Assembly (NCBI GenBank): GCA_905221605.1
Contig: CAJNDS010002212.1
Location: forward strand, 60,001 to 124,000
Length of the DNA stretch: 64,000 nucleotides
From: Symbiodinium natans
Lineage: Eukaryota > Sar > Dinophyceae > Suessiales > Symbiodiniaceae
Reading direction: 5' to 3'
The notes under the pieces are model-generated. The model ran no database searches, was not told the origin of the DNA, and worked only from the letters and a program-made list of their open reading frames with translations. Positions 49,500 to 52,400 of this stretch are shown here, one piece after another (position 1 is the first letter of the stretch; every line of letters starts with the position of its first letter). The translations under genes were made by a program, and so were the position numbers.

Positions 49500-52400
49500 T
49501 TAGGCCTGGGCCTGTGGCGCCTTGGCCTCCGTTCCTGTACTCTGCGCCTGAGAAGCCGACTCCTCCTCCTTGCTTTCTTGGCCGTCCGTGTCGCCTTTGT
49601 CGTTCTCGCCGTCGTTCGGTGAGCCCATGTCATGCGTGAACGGATTCCCGCCGGCAGTGACAAACTTGTTGAGCTCCTCCTTTATGGAGAAAGGTCGCTC
49701 TCCCAGTACCTGTGGGCTTGTACGAGTGCAGGAGTCGCGCTAGGAATGCAGGAGCCCTTTTACACAACGCAGGATGGGGTTGAAGGAAGCTTCTTCAAAG
49801 AATTTCCGGTGGCCTCCACGAGGTCGTGATAAACGAGAGTCTCCTTGCAAGGCGAGCTTGGTTTCTTCATCGTGAGACAAGTGGACGGCCGGTCGGCAAA
49901 CTGGACAGCACCTGACCCCACCAGCCTTCTCGGCGAGCCTGTCCGCGAGCTGCTGCAGCTTGTCGCTCTGCTCTTGCAGCAGCTCCTTCACCCTAAACCC
50001 TAAACCCTAAACTCTAAACCCTTTTGTTCAATTGGGCTTGTGCAATCGCCAGAGACCACCCAGGGTACATGTGCAGATATAGTTCACTGCACTCTCCCTT
50101 CCGAGCAGTACAAGACACTCAAACCAGCAATCTCCGCTGAGACCCGCAGGAACACACACAAAAACATGCCAAGATTATGCAACTCTAAACCTTAAACCCT
50201 AAACCCTAAACCAGCTCCTTCACCCTCTTGTACTGCTCGTCGACAATGCTCCGTGTCTGCTCATCAATCTTCCGGCCCGTCTCTTCGCTGTACGGCTTGT
50301 AGAATTGCTCGGAGGCATTGTTCTGGCCGTATGAAAGCCTCGGATTGCCCTTTTTAAAACCCTCCGGAAAAACATCCTGAGTTATGATTCTCTTAAACCC
50401 AATAAGGGAAACATATTCCTGATATATGATCCTCTTTTACCCCAAAATAAGGGATAATTAAGGGAAACATATCCCTACATATGATCCTGAGATTTACCCC
50501 ACCCTAAACCCTAAACCCGAAACCCTAAACCCTAAACCCTAGGGGAAGTTATCACAGTATCCTTTAAGGGCCTATCGAGGAGCAAACCCAGCTCAGAGTT
50601 CATCCCGTAGACTGCCACCATGGAGTAGGCCATCTTCGTCACCTGGTAGGGTTTAGGGTTTAGGGTTGAGGGTTCAGGGTTTAGGGTTTAGGGTTTAGGG
50701 TGTAGGGTGTAGGGTGTAGGGTGTAGGGTTTAGGGTTTAGGGTTCTTCGTCACCTTGTCGAGATCATCGGAGGCTCCAGTGGAGATCTTCTTCACAAAGA
50801 GCTCTTCTGCTGCCCGGCCCCCGAGGGCCACGGCAATCTTGTCCAGAATGGCCTCCTGCCGGTTTCAAGGAGGGAGCCAGGGTACCCTATAGAATCCCTT
50901 AAAGGGTATTATAGGGCCCTATATCGTCCCTTAAAGGGTATACTATATAGGCCCTATAGAATCCCTTAAAGGGTATAGTATATAGGGCCCTAGAATTCCC
51001 CTCACTCCTTGCTAAGAACCAGGCAGTCCTTGCAATCCTAAACCCTAAACCCTAAACCCTAAACCCTAAACCCTAACCCTAAACCCTAAACCCTAAACCC
51101 TAAGAGCCAGGGGGTCCTTGCTGAAGAGGCTCATCTCGGCAGGTAGGTACTGCGCGAAGCCCAGGGCACCACTACTCCGCGGCACGATGGACACCTACGA
51201 AAGGGTTTAGGGTTTAGGGTTTAGGGTTTAGGGTTTAGGGTTTACTCGGCGCTATCTCTGAGTCTGAGCAACTGAGCGCGACGGCACAGTGAACCAGCAC
51301 ATCATCGGGACCATCCCCCAGCAGTATTGGAACTACTGGGCGGCATCCCAATTCACCAGCCGATCCGACAGGACATCCAAAGGAAAGGTTGAGATCTCAA
51401 TGATACTTTTCTGCTTCCACAAGTTTGGCAAACGTCGAGGGGCATTCGTCAGGAACTCTAGGGTTTAGGGTTTAGGGAAGTTTAGGGTGTACAGCATTCC
51501 CTTATCGTAAGAACCCCAATAAGGTACCCCCTGAAGTTCGGACACTCCCCCCACCTTGAGGAGGGGATCTGCATGCTCCAGGAACCATCCCGCCACCGCA
51601 TGCCCAGACTCGTGCAACGCCACGGTCCGCTTCTCCGCCGGGCTCATCAAGCTGTTTTGCTTGGGTAGACCGCCAAGAACCTTGGGGAGGAAGTGAACCC
51701 GAAGATCGGGGGTCATATACCCTACACTACTATGATGATCCCTATTAAGGGCATATGGACCCATGATAAACCTTCGTAGGGAACCACCCTCAACCCTAGA
51801 CCCTTTCAGGGCTCGTCATCCGTCGTTGCAAGGAACTCGCTCGGTGGCCCGCTCAAAATCCTGCATCTCCACTGACTCTGCCGTCCGCCTTGCGGCGAAA
51901 ATGGCCGCCTCGTTGCAGATGTTGGCAATGTCTGCCTTAGAATTGTCCAGTATCGTAGGGCTTAGGGGATCTAACAGGAAACAAACTACCCCCTAAAAAA
52001 GGGTTAGGGTTTAGGGTTTAGGGTTTAGGGTTTAGGGTTTAGGGTTTAGGGTTTAGGGTTTAGGGTGTAGGGTTTAGGGTTTATACCTACACTACACTGC
52101 CAAGCTGCCCCAGCAAAGCCCGGCGTCAAGGATGCCATCCTCTTGGCCACCTCTTCAGCAGACAGCTGCTTGTGCAAGGTCACGGGCTTCAAGTGGACCA
52201 TGAAGATCTTCTCCCTCTCCGCCAAGTCCGGCTTGTCAATGGCCTGAGGCTTGGGAACTATGTTGCTATCTGACGGCTGAGGCACCAACAAAAACGACTC
52301 GCAAGCTCTCTAGCCCGACAAAGGACCCAACAATCAAAAGAACTGCCCGACTTGGCACGCTTAGTTGCAAAGCCATATGTCTCTCTTCCTGTACATGTAG

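Follow-up and report, generated by a model that had tools for sequence, protein, structure and literature searches.

Symbiodinium natans is a free-living alga related to coral symbionts. The stretch of its genome analyzed here, called the window throughout, comprises 64,000 nucleotides of contig CAJNDS010002212.1 (assembly GCA_905221605.1) and carries on its minus strand a gene for an m-AAA protease of the FTSH10/AFG3-like type (Table 1). The spliced coding sequence of 2454 nt is joined from 17 exons, and its exact translation is the 818-residue S. natans FTSH10 protein (P0001). Intron 12 of this gene is made almost wholly of telomeric repeat. Read along the plus strand, the order of elements is TCTTCGTCACCT, 99 nt of telomeric heptamers, and TCTTCGTCACCT again, and this 12-bp word is found exactly twice in the 64-kb window (0.02 expected). 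The insert is identical to a perfect (TTTAGGG)n at 91 of its 99 positions, with four TGTAGGG units in a row among the variant heptamers. Telomere-like words cover 98 of the 99 bases, and the intron otherwise consists of copied bases only.

The duplication is composed of the last 2 nt of exon 12 and the first 10 nt of exon 13. In RNA sense, the single GT of the intron is its donor, and the one AG besides the acceptor lies inside the copied stretch. If left unspliced, the array introduces an in-frame stop codon. The protein is continuous across the junction in 57 of 57 aligned rows, P0001 among them (the alignment took in 57 of the 120 proteins that the homologue search listed, some of them transcript-derived by source name). 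These results confirm what the first-pass annotation had observed, namely a 111-nt GT-AG intron of nearly pure TTTAGGG and variants, the same 12 bp on both sides of it, and a conserved stretch of 14 residues restored by its excision. The features by which a spliceosomal intron of the dinoflagellate type was recognized, a GT, GC or GA donor with AG and a protein exactly restored, are both found in intron 12. From the sequence, the two exons are predicted to be joined within the cell. The S. natans genome paper describes gene prediction with transcriptome assemblies, and IsoSeq transcripts were also made (PMC8045281). A search for a spliced-leader relic found none at two or fewer mismatches, and Rfam gave no match at the gathering score.

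Table 1. Features of the window (positions counted from its first letter)
Feature	Position	Strand	Description
Nudix-domain gene, non-telomeric intron	4299..4373	-	75 nt, GA-AG; 23-bp exact exon duplication, 52-nt insert
Nudix-domain gene, telomeric array in first aligned intron	5044..5157	+	bracketed by 13-bp exact duplication
Telomeric insert in locally repeated stretch	21991..22055	+	31-nt insert bracketed by 17-bp exact duplication
TIR element copy interrupted by telomeric array	30269..30473	+	duplication 30284-30300 / 30334-30350 (16/17); insert 30301-30333
Second interrupted TIR-element copy	34811..34987	+	duplication 34841-34866 / 34887-34912 (23/26); 20-nt telomeric insert
m-AAA protease gene (FTSH10/AFG3-like)	49503..55234	-	17 exons, 16 introns; exact spliced mapping of P0001
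Exon duplication, intron 14, copy 1	49980..49994	+	15 bp, exact
Intron 14 of m-AAA gene	49986..50217	-	232 nt, GA-AG; telomeric repeat at both duplicated ends, middle non-telomeric
Exon duplication, intron 14, copy 2	50212..50226	+	15 bp, exact
Exon duplication, intron 12, copy 1	50633..50644	+	12 bp; downstream exon side
Intron 12 of m-AAA gene	50643..50753	-	111 nt, GT-AG, telomeric; spliced mapping of P0001
Telomeric insert in intron 12	50645..50743	+	99 nt: 14 TTTAGGG-type heptamers and one T
Exon duplication, intron 12, copy 2	50744..50755	+	12 bp; upstream exon side
Telomeric array in intron 11 (51037 case)	51012..51121	-	imperfect 22-bp repeat (19/22), 51012-51033 and 51100-51121

Introns 12 and 14 among the introns of the gene

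A telomeric array is not special to intron 12, as at least two exact telomeric units are present in 10 of the 16 m-AAA introns. What distinguishes introns 12 and 14 is a long duplication across the splice junction. The exact duplications at the 16 junctions measure, in order, 4, 5, 4, 4, 4, 4, 2, 5, 4, 5, 4, 12, 3, 15, 4 and 3 bp; introns 12 and 14 are the outliers, and the remaining 14 introns have 2-5 bp. In both outliers, telomeric repeat adjoins the two duplicate copies. In intron 14, telomere-like bases make up 60 of the 217 bases of the insert, and the duplicated AAG|GAG yields an intron of the GA-AG type, which dinoflagellates are known to have (review PMC11453091). The signature described for Daphnia neointrons, a direct repeat of the exon ends around the intron, is thus found twice in this gene, at 12 and 15 bp.

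Two other arrays with flanking repeats were considered as further new introns and rejected, since in each the array lies within an intron and the flanking repeat is not a duplication of the exon. One is the array in intron 11, where the right repeat copy extends a few bases into the exon (by coordinates counted from the sequence), and the other is the array at 5044 in the Nudix-domain gene.

Two repeated element families were observed in the window. Five introns appear to belong to one introner-like family with ends of about TATATCCCCCTTGGGAAT...TTAAGGTTCTAAGGGGAGTATAG (53249-53359, 10740-10905, 9812-9921, 8305-8400 and 4510-4611 (-)); they have junction duplications of 4-6 bp, and the 3' end is matched within 3 mismatches in four of the five. 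The second family is a TIR element (TACTTGGAGGTTCATGGTACTTA) found at six places (7254-7381, 10071-10093, 22838-22991, 27746-27880, 30269-30473 and 34811-34987), two of which are matched at one end only. Dozens of its copies are present genome-wide.

Telomeric inserts with flanking duplications

The window contains 128 telomeric arrays of at least 13 bp. Across the 759-Mb assembly, a pattern of three TTTAGGG units was matched 2,369,589 times and the reversed pattern 74 times; counting 7 bases per match, telomeric repeat would amount to at least 2% of the DNA. Its density in 20 sampled stretches (L009-L028) varies from none to 16% of positions.

One array in the window (30305-30336) sits between 17-bp repeats (16/17) inside a copy of the TIR element TACTTGGAGGTTCATGGTACTTA...; the window contains 10 matches to the end of this element. 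The two flanks of this case (the 30284 case) were joined and used as an empty-site query. This gave 58 matches, from which 40 candidate places were scored, the window's own included, and 14 copies were fetched from candidate places other than the window's own. In each of the 14, the element reads through the site with a single target copy and without telomeric repeat. Three other copies in the window are likewise free of telomeric repeat, and a second copy is interrupted by a telomeric insert. The 14 intact copies and the second interrupted copy indicate that telomeric repeat does become inserted in this genome, along with duplications as long as those of introns 12 and 14. The TIR family is therefore a natural trap in which telomeric insertions can be typed.

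Flanking duplications were also counted over a wider set of 311 arrays, 109 from the window and 202 from the 20 sampled stretches, with a hit defined by a duplication score of at least 11. The array length limit of these tests was 20 bp, and the array at 34868 (19 bp) falls below it. For the window only, 5 of 110 arrays were hits against 0.2 expected from shuffled flanks. Over the 311 arrays, 10 hits were observed, compared to 0.55 with shuffled flanks and 15.7 with pseudo-arrays set at random places. When the copies were required to abut the array, there were 8 hits, where shuffled flanks gave 0.33, pseudo-arrays 6.9, and pseudo-arrays kept clear of tandem contexts 4.1. Pseudo-arrays placed within 800 bp gave an expectation of 7.0 in all, with 1.5 for the window (5 observed) and 5.6 outside it (3 observed). 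Under an over-strict uniqueness filter, 1 hit was observed against 0.92. The fairest control is an exact 9-mer uniqueness filter, under which 6 of the 311 arrays were hits against 1.86 expected and at most 5 in 80 control rounds; by origin, these were 4 of 109 in the window (0.71 expected) and 2 of 202 outside it (1.15 expected), the latter being no clear excess. This filter removes three cases scoring at least 9, the 22010 case and two in sampled stretch L021, where a six-frame translation at the duplication gave nothing clear. Without the local-satellite filter, the controls are as high as or above the observed count, and above it outside the window. Most telomeric arrays have no detectable flanking duplication and a minority keep one. 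Loci bearing duplications are also a minority in mammals, as reported for 6 of 130 in rodents, 4 of 25 in primates and 3 of 66 in horse (PMC2246262, PMC7215372). The flank statistic is weak, and it is the splice register and the intact TIR copies, not this count, that carry the case.

Random places in the S. natans genome are often surrounded by direct repeats of comparable length, and the 12-bp pair could in principle be a chance match or a local tandem duplication, with the array an ordinary microsatellite that grew within the intron. This explanation is given hardly any credence. The match coincides exactly with the splice register and brackets an insert of pure telomeric repeat, and the same arrangement recurs at intron 14 with 15 bp. 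The intact TIR copies also reveal that, at another place in the window, an array came in together with a duplication. A chance match was rejected for introns 12 and 14 on the grounds of splice register, purity and repetition.

A transposable element of the introner kind, carrying telomeric repeat and making its own target-site duplication, is also very unlikely to be the source. Introners are active in dinoflagellates (PMC9860276, review PMC11453091), and the two repeated families of the window are in keeping with such an origin. However, intron 12 has no terminal inverted repeats, and the arrays share no common non-telomeric end: in the 30-bp flanks of the 311 arrays the most frequent 8-mers are telomere variants (in at most 10 of 311), and non-telomeric words occur in at most 7 of 311. 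Moreover, the duplications of 12 and 15 bp compare with 4-6 bp in the introner-like introns of the window and with 4 bp in the introners of S. microadriaticum (PMC9860276). Some introner families are described as having neither TIR nor a 3-9 bp target duplication (PMC9860276), so that the absence of these alone is not decisive.

Paralogue and age of the intron positions

A second m-AAA-like gene was found on contig C2499 (177.0-183.5 kb), with 439 of 613 aligned residues identical to those of the m-AAA gene. It has 26 introns over residues 206 to 760, compared to 14 in the m-AAA gene; the alignment of five introns past residue 780 was too weak, and these were excluded from the counts. None of these 26 introns of the paralogue has a telomeric array, and they contain at most three isolated heptamer words. 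At exactly the position and phase of intron 12, the paralogue has a telomere-free GC-AG intron of 55 nt, and at the site of intron 14 it is uninterrupted. Position and phase are common to both genes in 3 of the 14 m-AAA introns (the intron-12 site, 625 and 749). A chance model with a preference for AG|G (7 of 14 introns, 32 such sites) gives a mean of 2.65 shared positions and a probability of 0.52 for three or more.

The 55-nt intron is compatible with a history in which an older intron at DLDK|VTK underwent clean loss or replacement, after which telomeric DNA came to occupy the site, so that the position would be old and the content new. Positions 625 and 749 are shared as well, and arrays clearly do enter existing non-coding DNA, as in intron 11, the Nudix intron and the TIR element. 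Nevertheless, such a history is judged unlikely. Invasion of an existing intron would copy intron sequence, not two joined exons, and no remnant of a different intron is left in the 111 nt of intron 12. The number of shared positions, three, is close to the chance expectation, and parallel gains at one site are reported to be common among young Daphnia introns (PMC4202315). The duplication at intron 12 spans the splice junction; if it is a target duplication, the exons were adjacent when it formed, and the same applies to intron 14. On this basis, an intact exon probably preceded the insertion at both sites. Because sharing of positions is at chance level and the paralogue is uninterrupted where the m-AAA gene has intron 14, de novo gain is kept as the best reading for both introns, with intron 14 the cleaner case on position and intron 12 on content.

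The first-pass annotation had named, as evidence against its reading, an old intron at this site without telomeric repeat or duplication. The 55-nt intron of the paralogue goes half of the way to this, and it is countered by the chance-level sharing and the junction-spanning duplication. A repeat-less copy of the same site is at hand for the 30284 case, and for intron 12 the one second copy read is the paralogue with its own intron there.

In addition, FtsH-like long reading frames with few or no stops were noted on contigs C127, C2126, C2354 and C757, two per contig and four on C127. They look bacterial, and these may be contaminant contigs of the assembly.

A candidate route of intron gain from telomeric DNA

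From the sequence of the locus, it is probable that intron 12 was born by insertion of telomeric DNA during the repair of a staggered break, with the duplicated AG|GT providing both splice sites. In the order of events that we infer, the break would have occurred in a continuous m-AAA exon, telomeric DNA would have been inserted during its repair, and fill-in of overhangs of about 12 nt would have left one copy of the exon sequence on each side of the insert. The first copy, through its AG|GT, would have served as the 5' splice site, and the 3' splice site would have come from the second copy. Since the duplicated stretch holds AG|GT, the insert would have been removable from the start with the protein unchanged. 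Read in RNA sense, the repeat as oriented here (CCCUAAA type) itself contains neither GT nor AG. Intron 14 would be a second product of the same route, formed by duplication of AAG|GAG as a GA-AG intron, and its middle would have been enlarged later.

The earlier proposal that telomeric insertion duplicated the exon and that AG|GT gave the splice sites thus gains support from intron 14 and the TIR copies, and it leaves telomerase addition and capture of a fragment as alternatives. The junction bases that continue the telomere register number 0 and 1 at intron 12 and 1 and 5 at intron 14. The register is continued on at least one side in six scored cases (1, 3, 3, 5, 5 and 4 bases), where the score of the 51037 case is based on a right edge that is 3 nt off. 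With 0 and 1 base, telomerase priming is not indicated at intron 12. Capture of a piece of telomere and subsequent slippage would each be consistent with the runs of variant heptamers.

Both parts of this route have precedents. Short interstitial telomeric sequences of mammals were inserted at double-strand breaks (Nergadze 2007, PMC2246262; Santagostino 2020, PMC7215372) and are similar to the present case in having a telomeric array at an internal break and sometimes a direct target duplication. They also have junction bases in telomere register, which at intron 12 number 0 and 1. According to the authors, none of the human ones is in an exon because the repeat has stop codons in both orientations (PMC2246262, PMC7215372). 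The S. natans insert differs in that it lies in coding sequence and would be made harmless by splicing. The Daphnia neointrons (Li 2014, PMC4202315) likewise have direct repeats of the exon ends at opposite ends of the intron, of 4-12 bp, but no telomeric filler is mentioned for them (PMC4202315; 0 matches to 'telomer'). As in introners, a target duplication would recruit the splice sites (Gozashti 2022, PMC9860276), and in those of S. microadriaticum the 5' splice site is derived from a 4-bp duplication (PMC9860276). Unlike introners, intron 12 has no TIR or family-specific end, its duplication is longer, and simple telomeric repeat forms its insert. Direct repeats of 4-30 bp were reported at 213 introns, some of them from S. 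microadriaticum, by Rogers and Bendich 2025 (PMC11782384), who read them as insertion scars; their search took in repeats within 80 bp of the borders at similarities down to 71%, and the available portion of that paper notes no telomeric inserts. The case would join two processes known separately, the filling of DNA breaks with telomeric repeat and the gain of introns through a duplicated AG|G, and would illustrate how an insert that has stop codons in either direction can persist within an exon.

The origin of introns is a long-standing question, and transposable introners are the well-supported mass route. Roy 2023 is reportedly a study on introners. Introns made from telomeric repeat were not found in open-access titles and abstracts, and they may be in print, for example in PMC8226300, PMC1805493 or Roy 2023. 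The first-pass annotation had spoken of a distinct route of intron gain; its two parts have been published (PMC4202315; PMC2246262, PMC7215372), and what was not found in the literature so covered is their combination.

A broader and more tentative proposal is that telomeric DNA may be a standing source of introns at many S. natans genes, with no transposase involved, in which any exon insertion with an AG|G duplication of 12-26 bp could be spliced at once. If true, introns would be a further product of the break repair by which telomeric repeat came to make up at least 2% of the genome. With a genome so rich in telomeric repeat, and with TIR elements that serve well as traps and exist as intact copies, a genome-wide count of the route is feasible.

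Two other genes of the window were surveyed for junction duplications. The gene at 7405-11283 (-) is photolyase/cryptochrome-like, with PF00875 and PF03441 in its homologues, and its alignment covers nearly the full extent of its closest homologue, P0121 (667 of 852 aligned residues identical). Its 8 introns have junction duplications of 4, 8, 3, 4, 4, 5, 4 and 7 bp, and three of them contain at least 30 bp of telomeric repeat. In the Nudix gene, the first 5 introns have junction duplications of 3, 4, 6, 23 and 1 bp, with at least 30 bp of telomeric repeat in two (five introns past residue 499 were too weakly aligned and were excluded from the counts). The 23-bp exon duplication belongs to the interval at 4299-4373, which was called an intron by alignment to a homologue. 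As its insert is non-telomeric, long duplications are not restricted to cases with telomeric filler. Break repair with filler DNA, of which telomeric repeat would be one kind, is suggested by this as the general route, and the Nudix intron possibly arose through it with another filler.
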